The translations under genes were made by a program, and so were the position numbers. The notes beneath the pieces are model-generated. The model ran no database searches and was not told where the DNA came from. It worked only from the letters and a program-made list of their open reading frames with translations. A stretch of DNA of 64,000 bases from Hemileia vastatrix (taxonomy: Eukaryota; Basidiomycota; Pucciniomycetes; Pucciniales; Zaghouaniaceae): the NCBI GenBank assembly GCA_030280995.1, contig JASXTE010000001.1, positions 19,518,106-19,582,105 of the forward strand, in the 5' to 3' direction. Of the stretch, positions 18,192 through 46,099 are shown in pieces (positions within the stretch are counted from its first letter, which is position 1; every line of letters starts with the position of its first letter).

Positions 18192-18369
18192 TTTGTTTTA
18201 TTTATCTCACACTTAAACTGTTCATAATTAATTGTACATAAAATTTTATCTTAATTTCCTGTATTTCTTTACTCTATCCATCATTAGTTGAATTTTCATA
18301 TTTTAATATTATAAATTCTCTTTTAAATAAAATTTTCAAGAATTTTTAATGTTAAAAATTCTTTTTTAG

Positions 18370-18532
18370 TTAAAATTTTAAATAAAAATTTGAAAGTTTC
18401 CCAATCCCAACCCTGCATTTTATTGAGCTAAGGGGTGGGTATCACCAAAATTTTTTCAAGTAAAGAATTTTACAAGTCTTATATGAAATTTTGGCAATAC
18501 TCCCCCCTGCATTTTATTGAAGTAAGGGAAGG
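18370..18532. repeat. Tandem repeat between ORF1 and TET gene (H1, left part)
   Basis: The repeat has ~85-100-bp units built on GGCAATAC-C-run-TGCATTTTATTGAAGTAAGGGG and GGTATCACCAAAATTTTTCAAGTC. Each unit is itself partly self-complementary (GGTATCACCAAAATTTT against AAAATTTTGGCAATACC). Copia-3 is inserted here; the array resumes at 22417. The same repeat stands at the same place in H2 (26330-26760), H3 (61810-62340) and H4 (47980-48180). Confidence 0.8.
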
Positions 18533-18666
18533 TGTTAGGGGGTGTTTAGGGAAGTTAGTAGAATGGTTAAGAAGCATTGAGAAACTAGTAGAATATTCTA
18601 GAACTATGTGTATATAGATATATAAGTGTTTGCACAGAGTAATGATATCTGATGGTCTCCACTATA
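18533..18666 (+). repeat. Copia-3 5' LTR
   Basis: It starts TGTTAGGGGGTGTTTAGG and ends CTCCACTATA. It contains a TATA-like run, GTGTATATAGATATATAAG, that may be the LTR promoter. The partner LTR at 22283 differs at only a handful of positions. Confidence 0.88.
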
Positions 18667-18678
18667 GGTTATGGGCCT
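18667..18678 (+). promoter_or_regulatory. Copia-3 primer-binding site (half tRNA-iMet type)
   Basis: GGTTATGGGCCT abuts the LTR. It matches the classical copia priming site complementary to the anticodon arm of initiator Met tRNA, which implies priming by a tRNA half. Confidence 0.7.
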
Positions 18679-19024
18679 GCGTTAAACTTGACCTGTTCCC
18701 TCAGTAATTCTGAACCCCTGGGTAACCCAATTTTTATATTTATCTTGGATAACCTCCACAACTCAACCGGTAACACCAACCCCTCAGGATAGCCTCCAAG
18801 CTAGCATCAATCATATCAATATTATCATTTTTTTTATTATTTTATTATTTTCTTTTTATCTCTCACATATGGCTTGCTACAACCCGTGTAATTTATCTAC
18901 CTCTTATTTTTATCCACCTCCACCTGTAATGAGCTGCGGAAGTTTATTGAATTACTGAATTTACTACCCAACTGTTTCGCCATTCTATCCAGTTTACCAA
19001 ACTTTTGTTCCACCCACCACCTCT

Positions 19025-20542
19025 GTGTCACAAACTCCACATCTTCCCTCTCATCATCAAACAAATGCAAATTCCCAAATGTTTTCCAAAATAACCAAAA
19101 TCGGAGAGGATTTAATTACTGCAGATGATGAACCCCGAATCAAAGAGGCCCATGTAAATATATCTTACACCTATTCAAGTCCAATCCTCGATAGTGGTGC
19201 CACTCACCACCAAACTGGAAACAAAGACCAGTTAGTCAACTTCAAACCTTTTAAAAAACCTATACCACTGAAAGTTGCCACCCACCTATCTAAATCTCCT
19301 TTCGTCACAGGCATGGGGACTCTTAACTTTTGGGATGTGGATGGGAATATACTGTCATTAAATGGTGTCTTGTATTGTGAATCTTCAAGTAATACCTTGA
19401 TCTTACCTGCAGCCATTATAGAGGGAGGGGGACACATTGGGATTTATGAGAAGGACATGTTTATTCTGGACAGAGACGGATTCTACTTACTCAAAGCAGA
19501 ATATAGAGATAGAAAATGGGTATTTCCTGACCCTGCTACCATAGATTTTAAATGTCTCCCTTGCAATAAAATTCTTTCTGTTGCTGTCTGCCCCTCAGAG
19601 ATTGCTCCCAGCCCAACTGAGATTTCTGTACAAAATGACAATGATGATAATCCTTTGATGGTATGGCATCGCTGCCTTGATCACAGGTCACTCAAATGTA
19701 TCAAACGACTATTCAAATTTGGAGCAGCCAATGGACTTCCAAAGTTCTTACCTTCTGGGTCACTCAACTGCACTGCGTGTAAAGAGTCAAAAAGTGAACA
19801 CCGCCAAAATCCATCATGGCACCCAACCAAAAGATCATTACAAAAACTTGAGATCATTACAACTGACTTAGTTGGTCCACTACCACCAACTCCAGAAAGT
19901 TACACATACATGATTACTTTTCAAGACCTGCACACCTCTTTTGGTGTTTGTGAACTCCTAAAGAGCAAAACAGATGTTTTTGGATCAATTGCCCGGACTT
20001 TTAACTTACTAGAAAACTACACTAACCACAAAGTGAAAATTATACATACAGGTAATGGGACTGAGTATGTCAATAATCAAGTTAAGACTTGGATGGCTGA
20101 GAAAGGAATTTTTCATGAACATAGCATGCCCTACACTCATGGAAAAAATGTAAAAATTGAGCGTTTCAACAGGACTGTATCTGAAAGTGGTAGGACACTG
20201 CTTGTTGATAGCAAATTACCTGAAGAGTTCTGGGGCAGAGCTTATTTATGGGCAGCATATGTCTACAACAGGGTTCCAAAGAGCACCTGTGTTACCAATA
20301 CACCTTTTGAATTCTTCATGGGTTACTGGCCTGATCTTTCTCACTTGAGAGTTTTTGGAGAAGTAGGATATGTTCATGTGCCATCAGAGAAGAGAAAAAA
20401 ACTAGACAAACGAGGTATCAAGTGTGTTGTAGTGGGATATTCTGTGGGTGGAAAGGGATGGATAATGTATGATGAAATCAATAAGAAATATTATGAAAGC
20501 ATCTGGGTACATTTTCCTAGTCAACTGAAGAGTCACTCGTAA
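19025..20542 (+). pseudogene. Copia-3 protease-integrase
   Basis: The 505-codon frame has no ATG where drawn and continues upstream as a Pro/Tyr-rich gag tail from ATG 18888 through a stop. Protease: PILDSGATHHQTGN (catalytic DSGAT). Pre-integrase: VWHRCLDHRS and CTACKESKSEH. Core: TTDLVGPLPPTPESYTYMI (Asp1), IHTGNGTEYVN (Asp2 replaced by Gly; TDNGTEY expected) and GKNVKIERFNRTV (Glu). The second Asp loss alone would inactivate strand transfer. The polyprotein frame continues to 21526 after stops at 20540, about 20690 and 21002. Confidence 0.85.
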
Positions 20543-22251
20543 AAAATCCACAGGCCAGTTAAAAATAAAAATTATACCACAGAAAATGACAAAATGAATA
20601 TTAACTATATTACAAATAAAATTGATCTACTGAACTTTGATGAAATAAAGGAAATACGGGAGCAAGACAGGATGGTCGATGAAATTGAATGAGATTGTGT
20701 GGAAATCATGAATGGTGTACCAAGAACCTTTAAACAGGAAATGAAAGACAGAGATAAGGATGAATGGGTGGATGCGTGTAAGAAAAATTTGGAAAACATG
20801 AACAAGATGGAAGTTTGGGATTTTGTGGACCGTCCAGTTGGAAAAAATGTTATGTCTGGCAAATGTGTTTTCAGCCTTAAGAGAGACAATGACGGCAACA
20901 TTATCAAAAGAAAAGCAAGATTTGTAGCCAAGGGGTTTACACAAGTAGAGGCCACTGACTACCATGACACCTTTACACCCACTGCCACTTTTACATCTCT
21001 ATGAATACTCCTCACAACAGTGGCACTAAATAAATGGCCTGTCCATAGTTTTGATGTCACGGCAGCTTATTTGCACTCAAAAATTGATGAAGATGTGTGG
21101 CTTGAAATACATGAGGGGTTTTATGAAGAACAACAACAAAGAAACAAGGTTTTAAAATTGAAGAAAGCTCTATATGGTACAAAACAGGCAGCAAGATGTT
21201 GGTGGAAACACCTGTCATCAAAACTCCGTGCACTTGGGTATATTCCTAGTTTTTATGATTCTAGTTTATATATTATTAGTAGTAGTAATGATAGAGGTAT
21301 TGTTTGGATTAATGTTGATGATGGTATAGTTACTGGTAGCTCTGAGTCATTCTTGAAAACTTTAGCACACAACTTAGAAGGTATTTTGAAAATTAATTGG
21401 TCTGATTCAGTTACTTCTATTGTTGGGGTAGATATTAGGCATATAGAGAATGGTTTTGCTCTTAGTCAAAGTGCATTAGTTTCTAGAATTCTGAAAGAAC
21501 ACAACCCTTCTCACAACCGCTATTGACTACTCTCCCAAGCCATCCAGAAAATGGCACTATTAAACTTACAAATCATCTCAACCAATGAAACTACCTCAGT
21601 ATCCTTGGTTCCATGAGCTATCTTGCTGTTGGGACCAGAACAGACATTGCATATAGTGTCAACTTCCTATCTCGTTTTGCTCAAAATCCTCAACCTGAAC
21701 ACTGGGTTGCTATCCATCATCTGTTGTGATATCTGGAAGATACAAAGGATCTCTCGCTCTTAATCAAACCTCATTACATTGCCAACGAGCCACTACATGT
21801 CTATGCTGATGCTAACTGGACTGGTCCAAAAGATTGTGCAAATCATGGATATGTTATCCTATACCATGGGGTACCTATCAACTGGAGTGCAAAAAGACAA
21901 CAACTTGTTGCACTTTCCTCACAATATGCCAAGACCATGGCCCTCAGCAATGCGACACGGACTGGAATCTGGATTCAGAATCTCTTAGAGGATGTAATAG
22001 GTGCTAAATTCAAACTAAAACTTTTTTGTGATAATAAATCCTCAGTCTATTTTGCAGAGGATTTGCCTTCTAACAAATGTTCCAGGCACATGAGGCGAGA
22101 TTTCTATTATGTGAATGAAATACTGTATGATGGACTGGCTTCTCTCACCTGGATTTCTACTCACGACAACATTGCCGAAATTATGACCAAAACCATAGGG
22201 AGGAATAAACTCTTGGAAACTTTGCCATTTTTACAGCTCAAATCTTTGTAG
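20543..22251 (+). pseudogene. Copia-3 reverse transcriptase and RNase H
   Basis: RT: EWVDACKKNLENMNKMEVWD, RFVAKGFTQVEATDYHD, VHSFDVTAAYLHSKID, LKKALYGTKQAARCWWK and WINVDDGIVTGSS (catalytic VDD). A frameshift near 21523 moves RNase H into the next frame: VYADANWTGPKD, QQLVALSSQYAKTMAL, FCDNKSSVYFAED, and an ADxMTK-like EIMTKTIG before TAG at 22249. The usual catalytic Glu of the SSTEAEY motif is not kept (SSQYAKT). Stops lie at about 20690, 21002 and 21565. Confidence 0.82.
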
Positions 22252-22282
22252 ACTGGGTATTTTGTGTGGTTGAGGGTGGGGG

Positions 22283-22416
22283 TGTTAGGGAGTATTTAGG
22301 GAAGTTAGTAGAATGGTTAAGAAGCATTGAGAAACTAGTAGAAAATTCTGGAACTATGTGTATATAGATATATAAGTGTTTGCGCAGAGTAATGAAATCT
22401 GATAGTCTCCACTATA
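22283..22416 (+). repeat. Copia-3 3' LTR
   Basis: It starts TGTTAGGGAGTATTTAGG right after the purine tract GAGGGTGGGGG. It ends CTCCACTATA and is followed directly by GATTGGTATCACC of the H1 tandem repeat. Confidence 0.88.
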
Positions 22417-22690
22417 GATTGGTATCACCAAAATTTCAAATCATTTTTTTTTGAAGTCTTATATTAAAATTTGGCAATACCCCCCTGTATTTTATTGAAT
22501 TAAGGTAAGGGTATCACCAAATTTTCAAGTCAATTTTTTTTTTAAAGTATGATATGAAAATTTTAAGATAACCCCCCTGTATTTTATTGAATTAAGGAAA
22601 GGGTATCATCAAAATTTCAAGTCAAACTTTTTTTAAAGTCTGATATGAAAATATGGCAATACCCCCCCTGAAATTTATTGAATCAAAGAA
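22417..22690. repeat. Tandem repeat between ORF1 and TET gene (H1, right part)
   Basis: Three units of GGTATCACCAAA..TTTCAAGTC..TTTTTTAAAGT..GGCAATACCCCCC(T)G.ATTTTATTGAAT continue the array interrupted by Copia-3. No coding potential. Confidence 0.8.
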
Positions 22691-23089
22691 ATCAAATGGA
22701 AAAAAAATCGAAATTGAAAATTTCTACAACCAATTATTTTCACCAGTCCCAATCAAGTTTTCATATTTTATATAATAGCCAATAGAACAACCTAAGGCCA
22801 GATGCACCATTATATAAAAAAAGTAATCTATCTTGATGTAACTTTAAAAAATAATTGGAAGAGACAAATCCAAAATTAAATGAAAAAAATTAAAAAGGAT
22901 AAATAAAATTGAAAAAAGAGGAAAATAAAAAGGGAAATTAAAAAAAAGATAAAAATTAATAAAAGAGAAAAAAAAGAAAAAAAAATTTGGAAGAAAATAT
23001 TTAATGGTAGAAAAAATATAATATTTTAGTTGCAATACTTGACATATCTACTAAGAATAATTTTTTATCAAAATTTTTTTTATTACAAA
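22691..23089. other. A-rich spacer of H1
   Basis: The interval is highly A-rich on the plus strand (runs such as TTAAAAAAAAGATAAAAATT) and has no supported coding region. It separates the tandem repeat from the 3' end of the oxygenase relic. Confidence 0.5.
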
Positions 23090-24399
23090 TACAATTAATA
23101 AGACCTTCATTTGTTTGGAATGAACAGCCAAAATGGGTAAATTCTTGAAAGGAAACTAAAGTTGAAGGTGCTTTAGTTTTTTGATGCCGATGTTGAGATG
23201 AATTCCATATAGCCTCAACTATTCAATTGGCACTACCAAAATCAATAATACATTTATGGTCAGGAAAAAAAAGGCCATGTCCCTCATCAGAAGAGGGTGA
23301 TGGAATAGTAACACCAGTCTCTGGATTAATATAAAAGAAAATTCCAAATGTTAGACAATTCTTATCATGTTTATCTAGATGAAAATTGTTGTAGAATCCT
23401 TTATAAGTGATAATAAGATCAGAAAAAAAACATAAGCATTTATTGCTTCTTACAATTCAGGATCAGACCAAATTGGTGAACCAGATTCTAAAGCAAGCTG
23501 ATGATTTTTTTGAAAAGCTTGAAAACAAAATTTTTTAAAACAATTTTACAAGAAAATATTAAATGATCCTAAAGAATTTCATTGTTTCAGATCTTCTTCC
23601 ATTTTCTCCGGTATCAAATTTTTAAATAAAGAATAAGTTCCTGAAATACATGACAAAATTAAAAATTACTTATAATAAAAAAATATTTACATACCAAAAG
23701 AAACTCCTTGATCATATCCTGGTTGCCAACCAATACCTTTCATGATACCAGAAATCAGATTTTTATTTGATAAGGGTTGTTGAACCAAAGCCATTTGATA
23801 GAGAGTAGAAATTAAATCAGAAAGCTGGCAAAAAACTTCATCCTTTTTCCCATTAAATGAATGAACTTCTAAGATGAATAAAGGTTTTTATCTGTTATTG
23901 AAAGCTGCAACAATGAGATCTATACCGCCTTCTGTAAGGTTTTTGATGTTTTCGAAAAATAAATTTCTTAACATTTGATATTGAAGTCTTATAAAATTTG
24001 AGATCCTCCAAATTTCCAAAGAATTTTTTAAAAAATATCTTCATCCTAATCAATTTTCTATTTTGAAAAAATTTTGTCTTTGAATTATTTAATTCATTAG
24101 CTGGTTCCATGATTTTCTGGTAAGGAAATCTCAGATTGATTCGGAGAAGGAATAGAATTGAAGGACATTGAAGAGATAGAAGAAAGTAAAGATAAAGAAG
24201 AAGAATTTGAATATATTGAAGGAATAGAATAGAAGGACATTAAAGAGATAGAAGAAAGTAAAGATAAAGAAGAAGAAGTTGAATATATTTGATGATTATT
24301 CTTGGAGCTTTCAAGATTTGAAGACAAGGAAGAAAGAGAAGATCAATATGATTCAGAAGAAATTGATGATAATGAAGATGAGCAAGTTAAATTTTCCAT
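23090..24399 (-). pseudogene. H1 TET/JBP-like 2OG-Fe(II) oxygenase, degenerate
   Basis: The ATG at 24399 (minus) starts MENLTCSSSLSSISS, a Ser-rich leader with several stops. Further on the frame reads NNFHLDKHDKNCLTFGIF (H-x-D iron motif), YINPETGVTIPSPSSDEG, HGLFFPDHKCIIDFGSAN, VEAIWNSSQHRHQKTKAP (distal His) and FTHFGCSFQ. This matches the H2 and H4 copies segment by segment. The family (TET/JBP dioxygenases, expanded in rusts) oxidises 5-methylpyrimidines in DNA. Multiple TAA/TAG/TGA codons make this copy dead. Confidence 0.68.
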
Positions 24400-24853
24400 A
24401 GTAACTTCCTGGAGAAAAAATTATAAAACAAAAAAAGTAAATTTTAAAAAATAAATATATTAGGGGGTATCAATGTTCAGGGATCAGCAATTAAATTAAT
24501 TGTGGATAAAAATCCTTATAAACCAATTATCTTCCGCAATTATTTTTGCTAATAATTGGGTTATTAGACACTTTACGTGTCAATGTTTACCTCTTATCCA
24601 ACATTTTTTTACTCAATTCTTCATAACCACATCTTAGACAACCTTCTGTCACAACCACATCTTGACCTACTTTCTGCCATAACCACATCTTGAACTACTT
24701 TCTGCCATAACCACATCTTGAACTACTCTCTGCATATGCCTTCTACCTTGCTGCACACTCCCATTCTCATCCCATCCACTCAGAATTTCTCCTCATTTCT
24801 TCTTTTTGATTCTGCTCCTTTTCATCTTCATTTATAATAACGTGCCTTGTCAT

Positions 24854-26191
24854 CCTAGATCTTCCCAAAGGCAGCCATCACCCAGTTGTTCTTCAATTCC
24901 CACTACTTCCTCTTTCCCCCGCTCAGCTGAGAAATCAAAGACCGTTCAATTAAAAAAAGATGACCATCTCATTCTTATCAACTGGCTGAAAACAAAATCT
25001 AACTATGATTCTTGTTTTGGTACTCAGTATGCCACTAAAGTAGGACGGCCCCCCACATCAAAAGTTAATGGCTATCTTCTAATGGCAAATGAATTATGGA
25101 ATAAGACCAAGGGAAGGATTGATCTTTTGCATAAACAGATGTCTGAACGATTCAAGCATTACCAAGCAAAATACAAGAAGGCAAAGGCTCTTTCATCTTC
25201 CACTGTTTTTGGGGTTACCGACAACAATATAACTAAGGGCATAAAATCCATAGACAATAAACTTGAAACTTTATGTCCTTACTTTAAAGAGATGGATGCA
25301 ATTTTTGGAGAGTGAGCCGATTTTTATCCTGTAAACATGTTGGATGGTGAAGATCCTATCTCCGAACATGATGTCAAAGCAAATCTTTTCCAATCCTCTT
25401 CCTCCACTCAAGCCTCCCCCTCTTCTAAATTATACGAATCTAGATAGCTTTGCTATTGATCCTATTGGCAATTTAACCTAACCCAATCTAACTCAGGTCT
25501 GTTTTTTTTTTCTTTTATCTTATCAATACTTTTTTTTATTTACTTAGATTTTCATATTTCTTAAAAGGCTGATGAACAAGCCCAGGACCCACAATCAACT
25601 GAGTCTCAAGCTAGCAAAAATGATGAGGAGGAAAATGCTACGTTGAACAAAAAGCGAAGGGCTTCAAGTAGTCTAAATTTCCACTCCCAAAGAAGACAAA
25701 AAAGTGATACTTCATCACAAACGCCTTTTTCTTTGATGGAACAGTTTTTAGAGAAACGTGATGCTGGTAAGTAATATCATACCTCTTATTACTTTACTCT
25801 GCTTTTCTTCTACTTTATGTTAATTTTTATTCTCACTCTAGAACAAGTGGAAATCGCTAAAGAGACTCTAAGCTTTGAAAAGAAGAAATACGAGCTCTCT
25901 TTAAAGAGGGATGACAGATTACAAGATTTGGAAGAGAGGAAGTATGAGCTCTCCTTACGGAAGGATGATCAGGTCCAAGATTTGGAGGAGAAGAAGTTTG
26001 AGTTAAGTCTTAGTATTGAAAAATCAAAAAAAGAGGAAAAAACACTCGAGCATCAAAACTTAATGGAACAGATGAAGTATAAGCATGATCTCCAAGAAAG
26101 TTCTAAAAAGTAAGATTTCTTGATTGAATTCATTAAAGCAAACAAATCTGTTGAAGAAATAGAACGTTTAATGAAATTTTTTGTTGACTAG
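24854..26191 (+). pseudogene. H2 ORF1: SANT-like/coiled-coil protein
   Basis: Three exons are visible: up to 25496, 25568-25766 and 25842 onward. The introns (71 and 75 bp) have GTCTGT/AAAAG and GTAAGT/CTCTAG borders. N-terminus: SQRQPSPSCSS, then KKDDHLILINWLKTKSNYD, SKVNGYLLMANELWNKTKG, QMSERFKHYQAKYKKAKAL and LCPYFKEMDAIFGE, a SANT/trihelix-like DNA-binding segment. C-terminus: coiled coil with three ~17-residue YELSL..DD..QDLEE repeats, then DFLIEFIKANKSVEEIERL. The ATG present in H1 is GTG here. Stops at about 25313, 25446 and 26111 interrupt it. Harbinger ORF1 proteins partner the transposase. Confidence 0.66.
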
Positions 26192-26329
26192 TTTCTTTTA
26201 TTTCTTTCACACTTCATGTGTTCATATTTATTTGTACATAAATTTTACAATTATTTTCTGTATTTCTTGAAATTTTGTATTTTAATGTTAAATATTCTTT
26301 TTTTAAATAAAGTTTTCAAGTCTCCTTTG

Positions 26330-26760
26330 AAAATTTGCCAAACCCCCACCCCTGAATTTTTTGAAGTAAGGGGTGGGTATCACCAAAATTCTTTCATGTC
26401 AAGAGTTTTGAAAGTCTTATATGAAACTTTGGCGTTACTACCCCCTTCATTTCACTGGTATCCCCAAAATTCTTACAAGTCAAGAATTTCACAAGTTTTA
26501 TAAGAAATTTTGGTAATACTCCCCCCTGCATTTTATTGAAGTAAGGGACAGGTATCACCAAAAATTTTTCACCAAAATATTTACAAGTCAAAAATTTTAC
26601 ATGTTACATTTGAAAATTCGGCAATACCCCCCCTACATTTTATTGAAGCAAGGGGTGGGTATCACCAAAATTTTTACAAGTCTTCAATTTTGAATGTCAG
26701 ATTTGAAAATTTGGCAATACCCCCCCCCCCCCTGCATTTTATTGAAGTAAGGGGTGGAAG
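26330..26760. repeat. Tandem repeat between ORF1 and TET gene (H2)
   Basis: About five units of the GGTATCACCAAAATT..CAAGTC..GGCAATACCCCCCCTGCATTTTATTGAAGTAAGGGGTG repeat are present, including a homopolymer C run near 26720-26731. It lies between the 3' ends of two convergent genes, where it could act as a shared terminator region (inference). Confidence 0.85.
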
Positions 26761-26990
26761 TCATCTAAATTTAATATAATTACATAAATTATTTAATAAA
26801 TATCTAAAATATATTAATTTCCCTAGTTTAAAGTAATGACAATTCCTCAAGCCAAAATGCAGATCAAATCTAGAAACAAAATTTTGGGACTTTTCACAGG
26901 TATAGGCTAGAGGAACCCCATGAAACAAATAAATGTTATCATGATTACCTGTTATACAACACAAGGTCTTTGGCCCATTACTTTAGTTGA
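26757..26990 (-). other. Conserved orphan frame downstream of TET gene (H2)
   Basis: The minus strand encodes LCCITGNHDNIYLFHGVPLA, then QNFVSRFDLHFGLRNCHYFK. The same reading frame is kept in H4 (47765-47974, LCCINGNHDNIYLFHGAPLA) and, with one stop, in H3 (about 62357-62540). Conservation of frame in three copies suggests a real exon, perhaps a last exon of the oxygenase or a separate small protein. No family recognised. Confidence 0.4.
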
Positions 26991-27109
26991 GGAAATTGAT
27001 ATATAAAAAATATTTATTAAAAATTTATGAAAAAATATAAATCTTTTGATGACAACTCCAATCCCCATACTTTTTGGATCTTGATAAAGTTTTTTTAAAT
27101 TGATTAACT

Positions 27110-28281
27110 TTACCTTCTTTCTTTACCTTGTTGATTCTTTGAATCAACTTTTGACTTATTTTCAAAAGAACAACCAAAATGAGTGAAATTTTGACAGGAT
27201 TCCAAACCAGCAGGAGCTTTGGTTGTTTGATGATTATCCTGAGAAGAATTTCAAATAGTTTTGATGATACCATTTCCCAAAGAAAAATTAATTATGCACT
27301 TGTGGTCTGGAAAATATAAACCATGTCCTTTGATTTTAGCTGGAGATGGTATTGGTTGGCCAGTAATTGGATTGATATATGAGAATATACCAAAAGTAAG
27401 AAAATTGGCGTCATTGGTATCGGTGTGAATTTTCTTGTGAAATCCAGAATGAGTGATAATAACATTAGAAAATAAAAAATATTTGTGGCTGATATCTTCC
27501 CATTCGGAGTCACACCAATTTGGTATTCCAACTTTGGTTGCAAATTCATGATTTTTTTCAAATGCCTTATTACAGAGCCTTTTGAGTCAAAGAGCAAGAA
27601 AAGAATTAAAGGAAGGTAGAGTGTCCCATAAGCAAAAATTTTCATCTTTTTGTGCTTTAGTGATATTCTTGAGCAATGAATATATGCCTATATAATTGAA
27701 ATAAGTGAAATAATATTAGGAATGGAACAAAAATTATTAGACATACCAAGAGAATATCCTTTGACAAAACCAGGTCTCCAACCAAAACCAATCATGATAC
27801 CACCCAAAAAATTTGTATTCCTTATAGGTAACCGAACCAAAGCCATTTGATAAAGAGTTATGATAAGATCGGATAGTTGATTAAAAGCTTCATCTTTTAC
27901 ACCATCGAATGAATGAACTTCCAAAATGAATTGAGCCTTAAAAGTATTGCTGATAACTGCAACAACTTGATCATCTCCAAATTCGGTTAGATATTTGATA
28001 TCTTCTGGTAATTTTTTCCGATATTGATTTTTTTTATCTAATTTAGTTTTATAAAAAAAATGTTTGAGATATGACCAAAAAAACTTTTGCAGAGAATTTT
28101 TTTTTAAATATCTTTTCTTCTGATGAGACTGATTATCATTAATTTTTTTTGATGATTTAGAAGATGATTGTATGGAAGTTGATTTCAAAGAAGATGATAG
28201 AGATGATAAAGATGAAGATGATAAAGAAGATAAAGATGAAGATGAGAGAGAAGTAAGGGGTGAATCTGAAGAAGAAGACAT
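27110..28281 (-). pseudogene. H2 TET/JBP-like 2OG-Fe(II) dioxygenase (two in-frame stops)
   Basis: Exons 28281-27747 and 27687-27110 are joined by a 59-bp intron (GTATGT..ATATAG) and total 371 codons. Domains in order: Ser-rich leader (~1-50); Lys-rich segment; EFGDDQVVAVISNTFKAQF; NTNFLGGIMIGFGWRPG, typical of rust Tet-like proteins; then the double-stranded beta-helix with KKIHTDTND (H-x-D), FLTFGIFSYINP, GHGLYFPDHKCIINF and SSQDNHQTTKAP (distal His), and FTHFGCSFE. TGA codons replace a residue after NSFLAL (Cys in H1) and Trp in IKTIWNSS (kept in H1 and H4). A 1-nt shift alters the C-terminus. The family oxidises 5-methylcytosine or thymine in DNA. Function of this copy is unlikely. Confidence 0.75.
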
Positions 28282-28860
28282 TTTTTTGATCTGAAAAAAA
28301 TTTAAATGTCAATAAAATCTCAACTCAATTTTTTTTAAAAAAAATTCACACCTAATAATAAAAAAAGCAGTTTTTTTATTTGAAAAATAAAATTGGAAAA
28401 AAAAACAAACAAAAAATCAGTAAAAATTTTTCCAAAAAAATAATTTATCAAAAAAAAACCTGAGGTTTTATTTTTAAAAACAAAATAAAAGCAAAATCCT
28501 TAAAAAAAAAAAATAATTCAAAAAAAAAAAATTTCAGTAAAAATTAAATCAAAAAAAAAAAAAAAAATTAAAAGTGAACCTGAAGATTAGTTATTAAAAA
28601 CCTTCTCACAAGATCCTGGAAAAAAAAAAAAAAAAATCAGTAAAATCAAAATCAAAAACAAAATTTTTTTTTAAATATAAAAAAAATCAGAAAAATTATT
28701 TGCTAGAAAAATTAAAAATAAAATTATAAAACTTTTTTTATTTGTAAATAAGAGGGACAGTCCTTAACTGAAAGAATTTTTTTTTTTCTAAAATACTGCC
28801 AAAAAAATTAAAAAATTAATCAAATTTTCAAAAAAAAAATTGTTAGTATATTTATTTGAA
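28282..28860. other. A/T homopolymer-rich spacer of H2
   Basis: This is a dense mixture of poly-A and poly-T tracts (for example 28549-28569, 28620-28636) with no coding region. It corresponds to the 5' side of the oxygenase gene on the minus strand. The H1 equivalent is 31653-32140 and the H3 equivalent about 62810-63130. Confidence 0.6.
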
Positions 28861-28899
28861 AGTAGGTAACCCCTCTTTATCTCCCATAAATGTCCCCTT

Positions 28900-29560
28900 T
28901 TACCCTCCTTTATTTATTTGAAATCCCCTTACAAATCCCTCCCTCCTTGCCTCCAAAGTCCCCTCCAATCCTCTCCTTGCCTGCCTCAAAAACCCCCTGA
29001 AACCCCCCCGAATTCCCCCCTTTACCCTTCTTTATATGTCCCAACCCCCCCCCCCCTATCCCCCCCTCTTTAGCCGCCTCAAACCCCCCAATTCCCCTCT
29101 CTTTAGCTGCCTCAAACCCCCCCTTCCACTTGCCTTACCCCCACCCACTCCCTTACCTCCTCCTCTACCCCCCCTCCTTGTTAACAAATGATTGGTAACA
29201 ATTGTTTGTTAAGAAAAAGGAGGGGGGTAGAGGAGGAGGTAAGGGAGTGGGTGGGGGGTAAAGCAAGTAGAAGGGGGGGAAGGGGGGGTTTGAGGCGGCT
29301 AAAGAGAGGGGAAGGGGGGGGTTTGAGGTGGCTAAAGAGAGGGGAAAGGGGGGTTTGAGGCGGCTAAAGAGAGGGGAAGGGGGGGTTGAGGGACATAAAG
29401 AGAGGGGAAGGGGGGAGTCTTGAAGCGCCTAAAAAGAGGGGAAGGGGGGGTGATGAGGGACCTAAAGAGGGGGGGAAGGGGGGATTTGAGGCAGCTAAAA
29501 AGGGGGTATTGAGACAGGTAAAGAGAGGGAAAAAGGGGGGCCTTGAGGATGATAAAGAGA
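28900..29560. repeat. C-rich/G-rich foldback (giant inverted repeat) of H2
   Basis: The left arm is C-rich, made of CCCCTCTCTTTAGCxGCCTCAAACCCCCC units. The right arm is its G-rich reverse complement (GGTTTGAGGCGGCTAAAGAGAGGGG). The innermost arms 29133-29179 and 29217-29263 are almost perfect (47 bp) around a 37-nt AT-rich loop. Transcription would give a very long hairpin, and the G-rich strand has many G4-G7 runs. Apparent Ser/Pro/Leu-rich frames across it are by-products of the repeats. Confidence 0.88.
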
Positions 29561-29719
29561 GGTGAAGGAGAGAAAAAAGAGAAAAAAGAGAAAAAAACAA
29601 AAAAAAATTAGTTTAGCCTAGAACAAAAATAAATGAAGCACTTACAAAAAAAACAAAAAAAACAAAAATAAAAAAAAAAAATCATGATTAGCAAATAAAA
29701 AACAAAGAAAAACAAGAAA

Positions 29720-29995
29720 AATGACCTACCTGGTGAGTTGAGTTGAGAAAATAAATGCAACCAAAAAAACTGAGGGATGTTTGAGGAGAGGATGAAAAGG
29801 ATATGAGTGATGAATGAAAAAAAAAATCACTGACAAAATATGCGATTTCATGTTGAGCTGGTGAAAGAAAACCAATGAGCCATCCAAAAAAAAGATATTC
29901 ACCATAAATTCAAAAAAAAAATGAATATGCAACAAACCAAAATACAAAACAAAGTGAATAAAGTACACAAAGAGGACATTTGGAAAGTATGAAAA
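29720..29995 (-). other. Conserved UTR-like block with splice donor (H2)
   Basis: The minus strand TCCTCTTTGTGTACTTTATT.. to CTCAACTCACCAG|GTAGGT is conserved in H1 (32945-33215), H3 (63800-63950) and, inverted, H4 (45830-46095). The CACCAG|GTAGGT/GTAAGT end looks like a kept 5' splice site, so this may be a leader exon for the oxygenase transcript or the 3' part of the transposase transcript. No protein frame is preserved between copies. Confidence 0.45.
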
Positions 29996-30049
29996 CATAA
30001 AAATTAAAAATTAAAAGATTTGCAAAGTGAAATGTTGGAGAGTGATTGG

Positions 30050-31263
30050 CATTATAATGGAGCGTATGCCGTTTGATTGAATGATTTGTGAATCAAGGGA
30101 GGGGAGTGCCAGTGGTGGTTCAGGATCCTCTTCTTCATAAAGATCATTCCACTCATCCTTAAATAAGCTAGAATATTGTGGAGTATTACGCAAGTCAAGA
30201 TTCAATGATCTGCAGTATTGATCTCCAATTTTTTTTGAAATTGGATTCTGAGCTCCCAAAGACTAGAAAATTGTCCCTTTAAAATACCTATAGCATGTTC
30301 AATTTGTACTCTTGATTGTGCAAGGTGATAATTAAAGGCAGTTTTGGGGTCATTTTCTGAAGTTGCACCACGGAAAGCAGGTATAATGTACTTTCCACTT
30401 GCATATGCTGAGTCTGCAAGGAGGTACTGAGATTCGTCAAAGTATGAGTCAGGGGATTGAGAAATCCTCATTCTTTGGAAGATGGAAGAGTCATGACATA
30501 ATCCAGGGCAGCCACTGTGAAAAGCAATAATTTTTTTATTGACATCGCATACAAGTTGAATGGCAATAGAGTATCTAGAAAGAAGATAAAAAGTTAGAAT
30601 GAGAACTTGGAGAAGATTTTGAAGAAACCTTTTTTTGCAATCAAAATAATGGTTGCCATCATGAGCAAGCTTTTGACTCAAAGGGATGGTTGTGCCATCA
30701 ACAAAATATATACAGCCAGGGAAACCTTCAGCTTGCATTACTTGAGAGGATTCAAGTTGCTGTTCTGGAGTTGGCCAAGCAAGAGTTTGAGACTTGAGGG
30801 AAAGGATAGCAATCATACAGCGCTTGGTGTATAATATCACGGTACCATATCCTATGTTAAAGAGATTATCCAAACGTCTTACGGCAGCACCATTTCCATT
30901 TGAGCCAAAGTGACATAGAGTAACAGCAAGTTGGATGGCAGGATTACGCTTTTTGTTATGAGAATTGTTATGGAAGATAGGATGTTCAGAAATGAGTTGA
31001 TAAATTTTGAAGAAAGAATCGGGAGAAGTTCTAAAAAGTTGTGTGAAGTTTAAATGAGGAATGTTGAGAATGGAGGCCAGATCATATTGGGGATCATGAT
31101 AAAGATTTGGCCCCCTGGTGATGATGTAACACTTTTTGGAAAGAAAACACATATAAGCTAAAGCATCTTCCAAATCAGAGTCAGATTTATAGTAAAGAGC
31201 TAAAAGAAAAGTGATAGCATTCATTGTTGAGTGAAGTAGCTTCATAGTAGAGAGGTGCTTCAT
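30050..31263 (-). pseudogene. H2 DDE_Tnp_4 transposase, one nonsense mutation
   Basis: The ATG at 31263 gives MKHLSTMKLLHSTMNAITF. The DDE nuclease fold follows: GCIYFVDGTTIPLSQ (first Asp), a 54-bp intron (30628-30575) joining CKKR to YSIAIQLVCDVNKK, HSGCPGLCHDSSIFQRMR (second Asp), QYLLADSAYASGKYIIPAFR and VQIEHAIGILKGQFSSLWEL (Glu). The frame meets TGA at 30202-30204 where H1 has Trp (ANHWIKTC), then continues ILTCVILHNILAYL, the usual family ending. PIF/Harbinger transposases cut at the ends and leave 3-bp target duplications, as seen here. Confidence 0.82.
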
Positions 31264-31649
31264 TGTTGTCAGTGGAAGGGATATGTGATGAGGGAAGTGG
31301 GAAGTGGAAATTCACTTCCAAATGTGCAGTTGAGGTAGGTAGATAGAAAAAAACTTAAGTGTTTGCCACCAAAATTAAGTGGCATAGAGTAAGGAAAGAC
31401 TTAAGGATGTCATCAGCAATTATGAGTCATGTGACTTTCTTGCAAATCCATCATGGATGAGATGAGTTTGGGATCAGGAATTAGGAATGGAAATTGGGGT
31501 ATAAGAGGCGGGATAATGCATTATTGTGGATTTCTTATCCACTAGCCCTGGGGCTATTGGATAAGAATCTTCCGCAATTAATAATGTCTGATCACGGGAA
31601 AAAAAATTCCTGATCCCTAATTGCAGATCCCTGAACATTGATACCCCCT
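31264..31649. promoter_or_regulatory. H2 right subterminal and terminal inverted repeat
   Basis: The region upstream of the transposase start (minus strand) is strongly conserved with H1 (43005-43401) and more weakly with 49980-50344. It contains CTTATCCACTAGCCCxxGGGCTAxTGGATAAG, a long palindrome at about 31529-31566, and ends CTGAACATTGATACCCCCT. The palindrome may be a transposase/ORF1 binding or cleavage-regulating site (inference). The transposase promoter must also lie here. Confidence 0.6.
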
Positions 31650-31652
31650 ATT

Positions 31653-32140
31653 AAAAAAATCCCCAACAATAAAAAATTATCAGTAAAATTATTGATGAGA
31701 AAAAAAATTTTTTTGGTAAAAAAAAAAAAAAGTTTCAAATAAATCAGTAAAAAAATTTTGAAAAAAAAAAATTCAAAACAAAAACCTGAATTATGATTGA
31801 AATACCAGGTAAAACAAATTCACCAAAAAAAAAAAGAGTAAATAAAAAAAAAATAAAAAAAATTCAGTAAATTTAATTGCAAAAATAAATAAATAAAAAT
31901 CACTTACCTACTATTGGAAATACGTTTTGATGTCATTCAATCCAATTTATTAAAATACAGTTTAAAAAAAAATTGAATTCAGTAAATTTCAGAATAATTA
32001 TTTTCAAAAACAAACACAAATAAAAAAAATAATTTACCTGATTTATTTTGGAAACAGGGGGAAATTTCCAGAAACTAAGGGAAAGAAAAAAAAATTCTGT
32101 AAAAGAAATTAAAAAGCAGAGATTAGTCTTTTTTTTTGCT
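31653..32140. other. A/T homopolymer-rich spacer of H1
   Basis: Resumption of H1 after H2. The interval is poly-A and poly-T rich, with AATTCAGTAAATTT-like runs and no supported coding region. It is equivalent to 28282-28860 in H2. Confidence 0.55.
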
Positions 32141-32830
32141 TCAAAATGCCCCCCAAAAAGTCTCCCCCCATTAACCCCCCTTTATTACCCCTTTACTCTC
32201 CCTTTACCCCCCCTTTACCCCCCTTTACCCCCCCTTTACCCCCCTCCTTGCCTGCCTCAAACCCCCCTTTACCCTTTCCTTGACCTTCTTAAGCCCTCCC
32301 CTTAACCCCCTCTGACCTTCCTCAAACCCCCCCTACACCTAACTTATCGAATCAGTAACAATTCAATAAGTCAATGAACAATCAATAGTGACCATTCATT
32401 AACTTATCAAATTGCTAACAATTCAATAAGTTAATAAACAATTTCTTATAATTGATCATTAACTTATCAAATCAATAGCAATTCAATAAGTAGGTGCTGG
32501 GGAGGTGTGGAGGGGTTTGAGGGGGGGGTTTGAGGTGGGATTGAGGGGGTAAAGAGGGGGGCTTGAGGGGGCCAAGGAGGGGGTAAAGGGGGGTGAAGGG
32601 GGGTTTGAGGCAGGCAAGGAGGGTGTAAAGGGGGGTTGAGGTGGGCAAGGAGGGATTAAAGGGGGAGTTGAGGTGGCCAAGAAGGGGAGAAAGGGGGGTA
32701 TGGAGATAGAAAAAGAAGGGGGAAAGGGGGGGGACTTGGGGTGGCCAAGGAGGGGAGAAAGGAGGGTATAGAGGCAGACAAAGAGGGAGGAAAGGGGGAT
32801 GATGAAGGGTGAAAAAAAAGATTAAAAAAA
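32140..32830. repeat. C-rich/G-rich foldback of H1
   Basis: The C-rich arm 32150-32340 (TTTACCCCCC units) and the G-rich arm 32505-32810 (GGAGGGGGTAAAGGGGGG units) surround three diverged ~60-bp repeats of AACTTATCAAATxxxTAACAATTCAATAAG (32341-32495), themselves palindromic. Sequence and spacer differ from H2, but the position and design are the same. Confidence 0.82.
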
Positions 32831-32944
32831 AAATTAGTCTAAACTTGAAAACCAAAAAAAAGCACTTACAGGACAAAAAAAAAGAAAAAAAAAGCAAAAA
32901 AAAAAAATCATGATTAGCAAATAAAAAAACAAAAATAAAAAAAA

Positions 32945-33230
32945 TGACCTACCTGGTGAGTTGATTTGAGAAAATAAAAGCAACAAAAATATATGAGAGA
33001 TTTTTGAGGAAAGGATGAAAAGGATATGAATGATGAATGAAAAAAAACACTGACAAAATATGCAATTTCAGAAAATATGTGATTTCATAGTGAGCTGGTG
33101 AAAGAAAACCAAGGAGCCATCCAAAAAAAAGATATTCACCGTAAATTCAAAAAAAATGAATATGCAACAAACAAAAATACCAAACCAAGTGAATAAAGTA
33201 CACAAAGTGGACATTTTCAGAGCACAAAAA
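32945..33230 (-). other. Conserved UTR-like block (H1)
   Basis: It is homologous to 29720-29995 of H2, with the same CACCAG|GTAGGT end near 32950. It is bordered on the right by the last transposase-linked bases before G1 interrupts H1 at 33315. Confidence 0.45.
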
Positions 33231-33314
33231 TAAAATTTTTAAAGTGTTGTGAAGAGAAATGTTGGAGAGTAATTGGCATCATAATGGAACGTATGCTGGT
33301 TGATTGAATGTTTT

Positions 33315-34087
33315 TGTCACCGGACGACCTACGCACAAGGTCGAGGATGTTCCTGAAAGTGAGATGAGGGATTTAGAAACTTCTTCGAAGCACAGAGGAA
33401 TGATTCGAGGAAATTATTCGAAGGTCACTCGAAGTAATAGCTATAGGTTCGAGGTTTGTTTGAGAAGAATTATAAACTAGTTCCAAGGTAATAATAATTC
33501 TTAAAATCTCAGGAAGGGTTGGAAACTCAATAGTCAAAGATTTAGGATTTAGAAATGAATATTGAGAAGGTAAAAGAAAGATACAATAACAATGATTTAA
33601 ATTTTAAGGTTTTTCCACTATTAATGTAAATACAATATTATAATTTAATTCTAAGGAATATCGAACCAAATACCCAACTCCTTTTATATCCTTTGTTCCT
33701 CCTCGCATTGACCTCCCTTCCATTGCAGTATTCCCATTCCATTGACCATTACTAACATACACTTAGACCCTCTTCACTAAATATCCGTCCATGCTCAATA
33801 TACCCCTTTTTAATTAATTAACAAAACTTTAATGAAAAACTACTACTGTACTATTTTGTTGATCCTAGCGCTGTGCGTCGCTTATTGAAAAGGACTAAGG
33901 TACCCTATTGGGAGATTGACTAATTTAGATTTAGAGTTTAGGCTAGCGCAGTTAAATAGTAAGTACACAAAGGAAAAATCGCAGTTGCTATGGAGAATTG
34001 CTTTCTGCGCTTTGAGTATAGATGTAGGACTCGATATTATTGATTTATTGAGTTAATTTCGCCTCGAGTGTCACGTGGCGCGTGACA
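33315..34087 (-). repeat. G1 3' LTR (left copy)
   Basis: The plus-strand sequence begins TGTCACCGGACGACCTACGC and ends CACGTGGCGCGTGACA, so the termini TGTCAC/GTGACA are inverted. It contains an E-box-type CACGTG near its end. About six substitutions separate it from the right copy (four transitions, two transversions by my count), pointing to recent insertion. Confidence 0.93.
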
Positions 34088-34097
34088 GATGCCCGGG

Positions 34098-34105
34098 TAT
34101 AAAAA
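34098..34105 (+). promoter_or_regulatory. TATA box of the G1 accessory gene
   Basis: TATAAAAA stands 10 bp outside the left LTR and 98 bp before the ATG at 34196, in the orientation opposite to gag-pol. The GC-rich surround (GCCCGGG..CGCGAACTCCG) contrasts with the AT-rich neighbourhood. Confidence 0.6.
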
Positions 34106-34195
34106 CGCGAACTCCGTTGAGCTTGAACCATCTTCCCACACTAATTTCACTTGTCTAATACTTTTTTCCCGCATCTCTCAATTATTTATTTTATA

Positions 34196-35123
34196 ATGAA
34201 CTGCCCTACCCCCACACCCACGCCTCCACACCCTAAAGCAGATGGGGGAATAATCACACGACAGTTTTCACGGACTTGCACGGCTTGTGAAAGCATGGAA
34301 TATTTCTGTGTCGAAAGTACGGCGACTCGAGGCCCTCGCCAGAAATGCGAGTTTTGCCGTTGGCGGCGAGTGGCGTGCGATGCGTTGACGAAGAACGCGG
34401 AAATCGAAAATCGATTCACAAAAACAAAATTTTGGGTAGTTCCAAAGACTAAAGAGGTGGTCGAAGACATTTGGGATGTCTCGATCGAAGATGAACAATC
34501 GGTGGGGGAAAATGATAAGGAGATGAACAACGAGATCTCAACCTGGGTAACCCAGGCCACGAGTTCGAAGCGAGGTGTCGAGGAAGAGGTCGATGAATTG
34601 GTGGAGGAGGATGAAGATGAAGTCCCTGTTCCAGGGCGGGCACCCAAGAAACGTCGGGTGGTCATCGAGGACGATGAGGAAGAGAGAGAGGTAGAAGTCG
34701 GAGTGGTGCCCAGGTTATTTCTGGAGCCTGATCCCATCTTCGAGGTAAGTTTTAATTGTTTTATTTCAAGGATGAAGTTACTGATGAGTCGCGTTTTAGA
34801 CATCGAATAACCTGGAAGAGCCGATTGTGGAGCCTGCGCCGGTTATACCAACTGAGGCAAACCCTCCGGCCACGGAAGTGGTTGAAGAGCCCGAAGACAC
34901 CCTGGACCAGGTGTGGTCGAAGAAACCTCGTCAAGGTCGACGAGTAAGGTTCGCGGAAGAACTATGTGGGGAGGTCGACGCTATTATTGACGCTGCTTCC
35001 TTCGACGTGATGGAGGAGCTCTTGGAGATTGGAGAGGTGGTTCCGGTAGGAGAGGAGGAGGTATTTGATAAATGCAGGAAGGAGATAAGGGTAGTTTTGG
35101 AGAAAATGAAAAGATTGGTTTGA
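34196..35123 (+). CDS. G1 accessory protein with Zn2Cys6-spaced cysteine cluster, antisense to gag-pol
   Basis: Exons 34196-34744 and 34800-35123 are joined by a 55-bp intron (GTAAGT..TTTTAG) in phase, giving 290 aa. The cysteines at residues 28, 31, 38, 51, 54 and 61 follow C-x2-C-x6-C-x12-C-x2-C-x6-C, which fits the fungal Zn2Cys6 binuclear cluster spacing. The second half carries the basic CEFCRWRRVACD, whereas typical family members are basic in the first half. An acidic linker (EEEVDELVEEDEDE), an NLS-like PKKRRVV near residue 150 and a C-terminal helical segment (EVFDKCRKEIRVVLEKMKR) follow. Likely nuclear and DNA- or chromatin-binding; the function is inference. It has its own TATA box and no stops, and its CpG-richer codon use resembles the rest of G1. 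Confidence 0.68.
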
Positions 35124-35512
35124 GAAAAATTAAAAGAAAAAATTTGAAAATGAAAAGGAGATGGAAAGAAGTAGAAGAAAAAATTGTATTTTAGTTTTAT
35201 TTTATTTTTATTTTATTTTATTATTAGTATTATTTTTTTTTTTTTTTATATTGTGGGTGAATGTTGTTAATTTTACAAGATTTGAGAAAGAGAGAAAAAG
35301 AAAAAAAAGAAAAAAGAAGTTTTAAATAAAAAATTTTAGAATTTGAAAGAAGAATTTTAAAGAAAGAAAAAAAGGTTGTTTTAATTGAAGGAAGTTTTAG
35401 TGTTTTTTTTTTTTTTTTAAAAAAGGAAAATTTTTATGTAAGAAAAGAGAGAGAAAAAGAAACGGTTTTGTGATTGAGATGAGTTGTTAAATTGAGGATT
35501 TTTTTAAAAAAA

Positions 35513-35543
<31 letters not shown>

Positions 35544-36147
35544 AATTTTAGTTTGAAAAAGAGGAGAAAGAAAAGAAAAAAAAACAAAGGGTAGAATTTA
35601 AGAGAGTTTGAAAAGAAGATTTATTTGTTTCAAAGAATTATTATAGGGAGATTCAGGGGTTGAAGTTAAGTTCGAGGAAATGGTCGTGCCATACAGGATT
35701 TGACGATTTGAAGAAAAGAAAGTCTTTAAAAGAGAGAATAAAAAATTTTTTAAAGAGAAAATTTTGAAGAGAATTTTAAATTTAAGAAAAGAATGTATTT
35801 AAAGAATTGAAAAAAGAAAAGAAGAAAATATTTAGAGAGATTTATGAGTTTTTTATTTTATTTTATTATTTATGTTTATTCTATTTTATTTTATTTTATT
35901 TTATTTAATTTAATTTAATTTAATTTAATTTTATTTAATTTTAATTTTAATTTTAATTTATTTTTTATTTTTTTATTGTATTTAATTTTAATTTTGATTT
36001 TATTTTTGGTTGGTTTTGGAGGAAATTTATAGAAGGAGAAGAAAGAAAAAGAAGAGAGAAAAAAGAAAACAAGGCTAAGAAATTTAAGAGGTGTTTTAGA
36101 TTTTAAAGAAAGAAAGAAAAGAAAAGAAAATTTTAAATAAAGAAATT
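35124..36147. repeat. Purine/pyrimidine-biased low-complexity tract with (TTTTA)n
   Basis: About 1 kb lies between the convergent accessory gene and pol. The plus strand is GAAAGAAAAG-like for long stretches, with T18-T20 runs near 35402 and 35515 and a (TTTTA/TTTAA) microsatellite at about 35855-35990. No protein frame is supported. It may serve as terminator or strand-biased spacer for both transcripts (inference). Confidence 0.7.
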
Positions 36148-39100
36148 TTAAGGTTTTGGTTTTAAAGGATATTTCGAATGAAAAGATTTTAGGAGTTCAG
36201 GAGCATTGGAAACATTGATGGCTGGTTCCCAGGATGTTTTGTCTGAGTCATTGAGGAAGCCTTCCCATTCCACGAGGTATTGAAGTTTCCCCTTGCGTAT
36301 TCTTGAATCAAGGATACGACTTACTTCCCACTCTAGATGATCTTCTACTTCGACCAGTTCCGGAGGGGGTTGGTTCTTGCCCGGGTATATTTCTCGAGCC
36401 AGTTCCAGGAGAGATACATGGAAAACAGGGTGAATCGCCTCCCATTTAGGAGGTAACTTGAGTCGAAATGCAGTTTTAGAGACTTCAGAGTCGATTTCGA
36501 ATGGTCCCAAGCGCTTTTCAGCCAGTTTCTTTGATGGTCTTGTTGTTCGGATGTTTCGTGCATCGAGCCATACTTTGTCGCCTGGTTTAAAGGAAGGAGC
36601 AGATTGTCGATGTTTGTCGGCCTGTTCCTTGTATCTTCGAATCGCTGATTCCAAATTTGTTTTAAGTTCTTCTTGGAGTCGTGATATAGTTCGAAGATAA
36701 TGTTCTGCAGGATGATTAGTTCCTACATGAATTGAGTTGAATCGAGGATGTTGTCCATAAATGGTTTCGAAGGGAGATTGTCGTGTCAAAGAATGAGTCG
36801 AGTTATTATAAGCAAATTCGGCCAATGGTAGCCATGTGGTCCAATCGTCTTGTTGGTAACTGACATACATTCGAAGATATTGTTCGAGGATTTGGTTAAC
36901 TCTTTCTGTTTGACCATCGGTTTCAGGGTGATAGGCCGTGGAGAGATTCCTCGTGATATTGAGTTGTCAACACAGTTGGGTCCAGAATGTGGATACAAAC
37001 AATGAGCCTCTATCTGAAATAATGTCATTTGGTAAGCCGTGTTTAGAAAATACATATTCTAGAAACAATTTTGACAAATCTTCTGCTGTAGCAGTAGTAG
37101 TGGTTTTAACAAAAATAGACATTTTTGAAAATCTATCTACTATTACTAATATAGCATCAAAATCATTAGAAATAGGAAGTTGAAAAATGAAATCCATCGA
37201 TAAAGATTCCCAAGGTTTAGAGGGAATAGGAAGTGGTTGAAGCAACCCATGCTTCCGGTGACGGGGAGCCTTATTCCTATTACATTTGTAACAAGCTTTT
37301 ATATAGGCCTTGATTTCCTTGGTCATACCTGGCCAGAAGAAATCCCTCGCTATTAACTGGTAGGTTTTATCAACCCCAAAATGACCAGCTAACGGAGAAT
37401 CATGTCGACTATTGAAAATCCATAATTTTATCTCATTGTTGTCGGGTATGACTACTCTACCTTCGAAGACTAATAGACCTGATTCAATACTAAATCTTTT
37501 GGCCCCTTGCTTCGAGAGTATTTTGTCTTTTAACCCTAAACAATAATCGTCCTTCGACTGAGCTTCGAGGATGTTGGATAGTGGATTTCGAAAAGATTGA
37601 ATTGTCATCGAATTAAGTTGATGAGTTGTTAACATTGATTCGTTGAAGATTGATTGCACATTTGCTGGGTTCTTGTCAGCAAATGCGTCCCCCCGCTGTG
37701 GGTAAACGTCGTCCCAATGTGACAAGATATCTGGGACAATGCAGTTTTTTCCTGGGCGATAGGAAATAGAGAAAGAAAATTCAGACAAAAGTTCAGCCCA
37801 CCTGGCTTGACGCCTGGTTAACACTTTAGAAGACATGAAGTATTTCAAAGCATTGTGATCAGTTAAAATTTGAAAAGGACTATCTAGGCTGAGAAGAAAA
37901 GAACGCCATTTTTTAAGACAATGGATAATAGCTAAAAGCTCTTTGTCATGAATTTCATAATTTAATTCCGCGGCTATGAGTTTGCGTGACTCAAAAGCAA
38001 CAGGATGAAACAAATTTGTTTCAGGATTTAATTGGGAGATGACCCCTGCAATAGCATAATCGCTCGCATCTGTCTCAACTATTGTCGAGGCCGAAGGATC
38101 AAAATGCCAAAGAATTGGGGCTGTGGTGAACGCCGTTTTTAGTGCTTCAAATTCCTTTCGTGCTGTAGAAGTAAAAACAAATGGAATATCTTTTCTAAGA
38201 AGAGAAGTAAGATTGGAAATAGTTTTAGAGTAATCTTTAATAAATCTTCTATAGAAGTTTGCAAAACCCAAAAATCCTTGGAGTGATTTAATGTTTTTGG
38301 GCTCAGGCCATTCCAGGATTTTCTGGACTTTTTTGTCATCCATGACTAAACCGTCAGTGGACAACGTAAACCCCAAAAAATCAATTGATTTGAGGTGGAA
38401 TTCGCATTTATTATGCTTGGTGTAGAGACCATGATCTCGAAGACGATTTAGGACCTGTCGAACATGATGAATATGTTCATCCAGTGTTTTTGAGAATATT
38501 AAAATATCATCTAAATAGACGACTACAAATTGTTCAACAACATCTTGAAAGATATCATTAACAAAAGTTTGAAAAGTTGAAGGTGCGTTACATAATCCAA
38601 AAGGCATAACTAAATATTCAAAACTACCAAATCTAGTGCGCATTGCAGTCAGTGGTTCATGACCTTCCGCAATGCGAATAAGATTGTAAGCGCCTCTAAG
38701 ATCAATTTTAGAAAAGAAATTAGCACCATTGAAAAGGGTAAGAAGTAATGACATAGGAGGAACAGGATATGCATTTTTCTTTGTGACTGTGTTGAGCTGT
38801 CTATAGTCAACACACAACCTAAGACTACCGTCCTTCTTTTTTACAAAGAGGACTGGGGAGCCGGTTGGAGATTTACTGGCTCTGATGAAACCTTTGGCTA
38901 CATTCTCTGCAATGTAGTCTCGAAGAACTTGAGATTCGTCCTTCGATAGAGAATAGACAGGACCTGCCGGAGGTACTGGGCCTATTAACTCTATTTGATG
39001 GTCGTAGGGTCGATGAGGTGGTAACTTATCGGCCTTGCGGATTGAGAAAACATCGAGGAAATCGTGGTAGATTTCCGGTAGAGTTGATTTAATGGCTTCA

Positions 39101-40982: not shown

Positions 40983-41055
40983 TTAAAATTTTTAGAAGCA
41001 CCTAAAAAAGACGTAGTAGTGCAAAGAATGAGAACTACGGAGAATTAAATTATAC

Positions 41056-41828: not shown

Positions 41829-41834
41829 GTTTTG

Positions 41835-45464: not shown

Positions 45465-45639
45465 AATGTTAAGGTCTTAAAAATAGGATCCAACTTGGTT
45501 GAAAAATTTCTCTTTGAGGCACAAGGTATAAGTTAAGAATCACTAGTCACACCTGTGCAGAGAACCTCACAGGACACAGGCTCACACAACTGGACAACTG
45601 AATCTCCTGACTTCAATAGGGGGTGTCAGTTCTGGAAAA

Positions 45640-46095: not shown

Positions 46096-46099
46096 CTTT

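Follow-up and report, generated by a model that had tools for sequence, protein, structure and literature searches.

The 64,000-nucleotide stretch of Hemileia vastatrix DNA analysed here (contig JASXTE010000001.1, positions 19,518,106 to 19,582,105; hereafter the window) harbours at 24462..31649 an element, H2, which is almost certainly a PIF/Harbinger DNA transposon carrying ORF1, a Tet-like 2OG-Fe(II) oxygenase (TET) and a DDE_Tnp_4 transposase. It has a length of 7186 bases and is bounded by AGGGGGTATCA...TGATACCCCCT, as determined from the terminal arms and a pattern scan, and the arms of these terminal inverted repeats are alike at 30 of 31 bases. The end words of the family are AGGGGGTATCA and AGGGGGTGTCA; with at most one mismatch allowed, the former occurs nine times in the window against a shuffle mean of 0.87, and none of 100 shuffles reached nine. 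The DNA is low in G+C (0.339). Inside the ends of H2, ORF1 is encoded on the plus strand, and the oxygenase and the transposase follow on the minus strand. A preliminary description, made from the letters of this DNA alone, had placed three genes between defined ends, and this is borne out by the end-word scan, the matching arms and the genes found.

The oxygenase gene consists of two exons on the minus strand, separated by a predicted intron of 59 bases (27688..27746); this intron and that of the transposase were predicted from GT..AG signals and the reading frame. Exon 1 (GGIMIGFGWRPG; 27747..28281), taken together with the first part of exon 2, matches positions 11-81 of the Pfam profile PF20515 ("Tet-like 2OG-Fe(II) oxygenase superfamily") with an E-value of 3.2e-5 and 24.4 bits, slightly below the curated cut-off of 27. 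Exon 2 (27113..27687) is interrupted by two in-frame TGA codons (27587-27589 and 27251-27253), and the part between them (27254-27586) matches model positions 85-197 at 1.4e-18, with 68.2 bits against the cut-off of 27. Taken jointly, the oxygenase pieces of H2 and of H4, a different Harbinger element of the window described below, span positions 11-208 of the 211 in the profile. The motifs from which the gene was originally recognised (KKIHTDTND, with the HxD in IHTDTND; PDHKCII; and the distal His in DNHQ) are all present in H2, and the profile match to this middle gene agrees with that recognition. A protein search with the N-terminal part of the oxygenase returned no match among 7978 scored candidates, the serine-rich start of the query having probably swamped the word list.

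The transposase frame of H2 (30202..31263, minus strand) contains a predicted intron of 54 bases (30575-30628). It matches DDE_Tnp_4 (PF13359) at 3.9e-19 as read and at 2.6e-23 (82.8 bits; cut-off 24.8) with the intron excluded, so that the family assignment made beforehand holds for H2. The frame is closed by a stop at 30202-30204, past the DDE match and short of the usual C-terminal stretch. A protein search, for which the query contained the unspliced intron, gave 90 matches; the best with at least 80% query coverage had 49% identity (Puccinia coronata), followed by 47% (P. striiformis), and at this coverage the Austropuccinia psidii transposases reached at most 45%, so that A. psidii, which the low G+C had suggested as a source of the DNA, is not supported. 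Over shorter stretches identities exceed these values and reach 67% in Phakopsora (13% of the query). In a tree of H2 and 31 sequences chosen from the 90 matches, H2 falls together with 10 proteins of Puccinia and Austropuccinia (support 100/98), and its place is beside five Puccinia sequences (87/79), on a long branch. Judged by these relatives alone, the host would be a rust or a near relation of the rusts. Between the oxygenase and the transposase, H2 has a large imperfect palindrome (29050-29540) of C-rich and G-rich units, and a related stretch is found at 32160-32800 in the second copy, H1.

ORF1 of H2 (24842..26113, plus strand) has several exons and a coiled-coil-like C-terminal part, and contains a stop at 25313-25315 that is also present in H1. 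Its matches to Myb_DNA-bind_4 are all weak, with E-values of 0.017 (H2, 125 amino acids), 0.03 (H2, 157 amino acids) and 0.069 (the partial copy H3) and 14-16 bits against a Pfam cut-off of 27. A protein search with ORF1 gave no match among 13 candidates, and the structure model of ORF1 (two sequences), with a mean predicted local distance difference test score (pLDDT) of 39.9, was too poor for fold comparison. In working relatives, the ORF1 helper is perhaps DNA-binding. Downstream (3') of ORF1, units of a repeat of about 90 bases (..AATACCCCCCTGCATTTTATTGAAGTAAGGGGTGGGTATCACCAAAATTT..) occur in H1, H2 and H3 (26309-26772, 22420-22691, 61764-62332 and 18372-18533), and they resemble parts of the element's own ends.

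The labels H1, H3 and H4 were assigned to further copies from the results of similarity searches. H1 (16345..43400) agrees with H2 in its three genes, their order and their strands, and its arms match at 27 of 31 bases. Three later insertions, a Copia-like element, H2 and a Gypsy element, interrupt it, and without these insertions its length is about 7459 bases, compared to 7186 for H2; the flanks of the Gypsy element match adjacent H2 positions (5625 and 5623). Both the oxygenase of H1 (23115..24040, minus strand; PF20515 at 1e-09 on one piece) and its transposase (41952..43004, minus strand; 79% protein identity to that of H2) are broken. The oxygenase belongs to the transposon, chiefly because H1 repeats the gene order, strands and ends of H2. 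A chance neighbour or a separate insertion was rejected, as the oxygenase has the same slot and order in both copies, within the ends and target duplications, and no ends of its own were seen around it in H1 or H2; the view of the preliminary description, that the TET/JBP-like gene is the Harbinger element's own part, is upheld by this shared slot and by the Pfam match.

The same description had listed the oxygenase as present in the same slot in H1, as a tail in H3 and as exon 2 in H4, of which the first two statements stand and the same slot in H4 does not. H3 (60029..64000) is a partial copy that extends past the window end and contains ORF1 and a TET C-terminal tail at 62722-62778; it aligns to H2 positions 3-2755 at 78%, then to 5037-5388 and then to a 39-base stretch, and no transposase match was seen from 60029 to the window end. 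H4 (45619..49124; ends GGGGGTGTCA, arms matching at 29 of 31 bases) combines a transposase piece (48155-48805; 53% protein identity to that of H2), cut off where an inverted block starts, with two inverted H2-like blocks, at 47034-48180 (91.7% over 1149 columns, on the strand opposite to the H4 transposase) and 45829-46170 (86.6%). TET exon 2 sits in the first of these inverted blocks (47034-48180), on which ground H4 was rejected as a same-slot copy; it is a rearrangement without a same-slot oxygenase.

Four elements of the window have both ends, and their flanks can be read in two ways. Around AGGGGG..CCCCCT, target duplications of 3 bp are found in all four (ATT, ATT, AAT, AAT), those of H2 being ATT at 24459..24461 and 31650..31652; around the core GGGGG..CCCCC, the same flanks of all four give TA, which is also the 2-bp reading for H2. 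The extra agreement of the 3-bp reading would be expected by chance at 189 of the 4955 TA sites in the window (3.8%), or with a probability of about 2e-6 for four in a row. When single ends are included the flanks are AWT in 10 of 10, an agreement that target preference could partly mimic. A 3-bp AWT duplication fits the flanks of the four elements better than the TA described for the related elements treated next.

The preliminary description held the coupling of TET to Harbinger to be non-standard. This novelty had to be rejected, since Kojima 2025 (PMC12730594) already describes 15 TET-bearing Harbinger families ("PHISTA") from six rusts, P. graminis, P. striiformis, P. triticina, P. coronata, P. 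hordei and A. psidii, and reports the same set of three genes for them; no further paper on the coupling was among the matches listed from the open-licence literature. H2 was truly and correctly recognised, and is a further example of this published kind, here as dead copies. As far as can be compared by the published description, as opposed to the element sequences, PHISTA elements and those of the window have in common that terminal inverted repeats enclose genes for a Harbinger-type DDE transposase, a TET/JBP protein and a third protein, that the host belongs to the order Pucciniales and that TA flanks the core (PMC12730594). They differ in that PHISTA is described with, and named for, TA target duplications, whereas all four two-ended elements here fit 3-bp AWT with ends AGGGGG..CCCCCT better, and in that Kojima's account reports no third protein with a Myb/SANT domain (PMC12730594), whereas ORF1 in the window has its weak, below-cut-off Myb/SANT-like match. 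The host of the window also lies outside the species with close annotated proteins. Canonical PIF/Harbinger elements and Nuwa are similar in their 3-bp target duplications and in having a transposase and a second protein, Myb/SANT-bearing in Nuwa, but as described in the same paper they have two genes and no TET gene (PMC12730594).

The oxygenase and the transposase of these copies appear to have had different histories. Between H1 and H2, nucleotide agreement is 90.1% in the transposase (bootstrap 88.4-91.9) and 83.5% in the left 2 kb including introns and non-coding DNA, compared to 62.7% in TET exon 2 (58.7-66.9) and 63.8% in TET exon 1, all of these identities omitting gap columns (99 of them in TET exon 2). 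Between H2 and H4, it is TET exon 2 that agrees well (92.8%) and the shared part of the transposase that does not (62.8%). Slow decay cannot yield 63% in TET, because H1 and H2 keep 83.5% even across a stretch with non-coding DNA, and replacement of the TET block would fit their divergence better. For H4, insertion of H2-like DNA in inverted orientation accounts for the pattern, and no exchange between working elements need be assumed. Since its history departs from that of the transposase, the comparisons suggest that the oxygenase may move between Harbinger families; the evidence for such a mosaic history is three comparisons in one window and not a tree. It is tempting, but at present doubtful, to go further and regard H2 and its kin as a TET-bearing Harbinger lineage apart from PHISTA, with true 3-bp AWT duplications, a Myb/SANT-like ORF1, an unsampled rust as host and a TET cassette exchanged between Harbinger families and so evolving apart from the transposase.

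Iyer et al. are said to have described TET/JBP genes as cargo of KDZ (Kyakuja-Dileera-Zisupton) DNA transposons in basidiomycetes. The window elements resemble these in being DNA transposons of a basidiomycete that carry a TET/JBP gene, and differ in their transposase superfamily and in target duplications, which are of 8 bp for Dileera and Zisupton (PMC12730594). In rusts, DNA transposons of many families contain TET genes whose coding regions are mostly undisrupted, and both transfer of TET genes between transposon superfamilies and C-to-T hypermutation have been described (PMC12730594). A counter-silencing function, i.e. escape from methylation, has likewise been put forward for PHISTA, where it is itself a proposal (PMC12730594); the relief of host methylation suggested in the preliminary description is the same idea. 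A 2026 review (PMC13297926) describes enzymes of this kind as not yet functionally characterised.

H2 is a decayed copy, whose working relatives encode a DDE transposase, an ORF1 helper and a TET/JBP-like dioxygenase. In intact relatives, the transposase and ORF1 would cut and paste the element, and the oxygenase would oxidise 5-methylcytosine on the element's own DNA, which might slow its silencing or its loss of C to T. We consider this role of the oxygenase somewhat favoured, and for the identity of the element and the proposed role taken together we estimate a probability of roughly 0.55. In favour of this reading are the PF20515 and DDE_Tnp_4 matches, the ends and target duplications of all four two-ended elements, the mostly undisrupted TET coding regions in transposons of other rusts (PMC12730594), and the slot and orientation of TET, which are the same in H1 and H2 despite divergence to 63%. 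HxD is also retained in the oxygenase pieces of H2, H1 and H4.

Several observations weigh against such a role. The intactness looked for in the preliminary description is not found: ORF1, TET exon 2 and the transposase of H2 all run into stops, and the whole enzyme could be encoded by none of the four TET copies, of which H1 has stops and frame changes, H2 two stops, H3 only the tail, and H4 exon 2 with two stops and no exon 1. HxD and the distal His accordingly never lie in one open frame in H1, H2 or H4, the distal-His piece of H2 lying past the second stop. H2 and H4 have the first stop in TET exon 2 in common, and their shared source may therefore already have lacked the full enzyme. Sequence searches of the Protein Data Bank matched no solved TET structure, one giving a single match to an unrelated protein (E 0.83) and the other none. 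Moreover, the TET-bearing family has the CpG loss expected of methylated repeats, with no protection visible. In the left 2 kb of H1, H2 and H3, transitions are found at 15 of 72 CpG site-copies (3 of 9 at TCG) compared to 97 of 1866 at other C, a count that sets aside 24 undetermined site-copies with 3 transitions. The observed/expected ratio of CpG is 0.24 in H2 and 0.25 in the Copia element, which is without TET; the Gypsy element reaches 0.90, and the value for the window as a whole is 0.34. This loss makes it less likely that the dead copies seen here enjoyed lasting protection; it does not argue against activity in live copies.

The similar CpG loss of H2 and of the Copia element without TET, together with the broken or partial state of all four TET copies and the stop common to H2 and H4, could also indicate that the gene is a passenger, captured once or several times by rust transposons and useless to the Harbinger family. 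This is unlikely, as H1 and H2 both keep TET in the same slot, ORF1 and the transposase of H2 are broken as well, so that decay is not peculiar to TET, and the consensus sequences of Kojima have TET frames with few disruptions (PMC12730594). An enzyme acting in trans on the genome or other transposons, or making another mark (oxidation of N6-methyladenine or a hypermodified base), without relieving 5-methylcytosine on its own element, would agree with Kojima's remark that other activities cannot be excluded for TET enzymes of this type and with oxidised cytosine in Coprinopsis that is found also on retrotransposons (PMC12730594); we regard this as quite unlikely. The differing relatedness of TET and transposase between copies, and the inverted block that holds the TET piece of H4, might even be taken to mean that the oxygenase inserted as a mobile unit of its own or is an adjoining host gene outside the transposon. 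Its place within matched ends and target duplications in both H1 and H2, with the gene order conserved, and the lack of own ends or target duplications in the three pairs compared by Kojima (PMC12730594), make this highly improbable.

If the favoured reading, oxidation of the element's own methylated DNA, is correct, a transposon-borne DNA-methyl oxidase would serve as a weapon in an arms race with silencing. The window adds a TET-bearing Harbinger element in a rust far removed from the annotated relatives in Puccinia and Austropuccinia and so widens the published list, and it contains TET-bearing copies that die like others, with heavy CpG loss. The 3-bp duplication, the possibly Myb-like ORF1 and the mosaic history are possible additions to the PHISTA picture, and swapping of the oxygenase between families, if upheld genome-wide, would tell how the gene spreads.

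Among the remaining features of the window, the Copia-like element in H1 (18531-22420) has integrase domains and direct repeats of 140 bases that are 94% alike. The Gypsy element (33315-41828) has direct repeats that are 97% alike, pol and chromodomain matches and the target duplication GTTTT; at 34145-34842, this young element has further open frames, on both strands, that match no Pfam profile. The nesting of the Copia-like element, H2 and the Gypsy element in H1 (16345-43400) gives the order of insertion. Two open frames that are related to each other, neither with a convincing Pfam match, lie on the minus strand at 927-2478, and the pattern scan located a mini-element of 198 bases (45266..45463) with the same ends and no gene.

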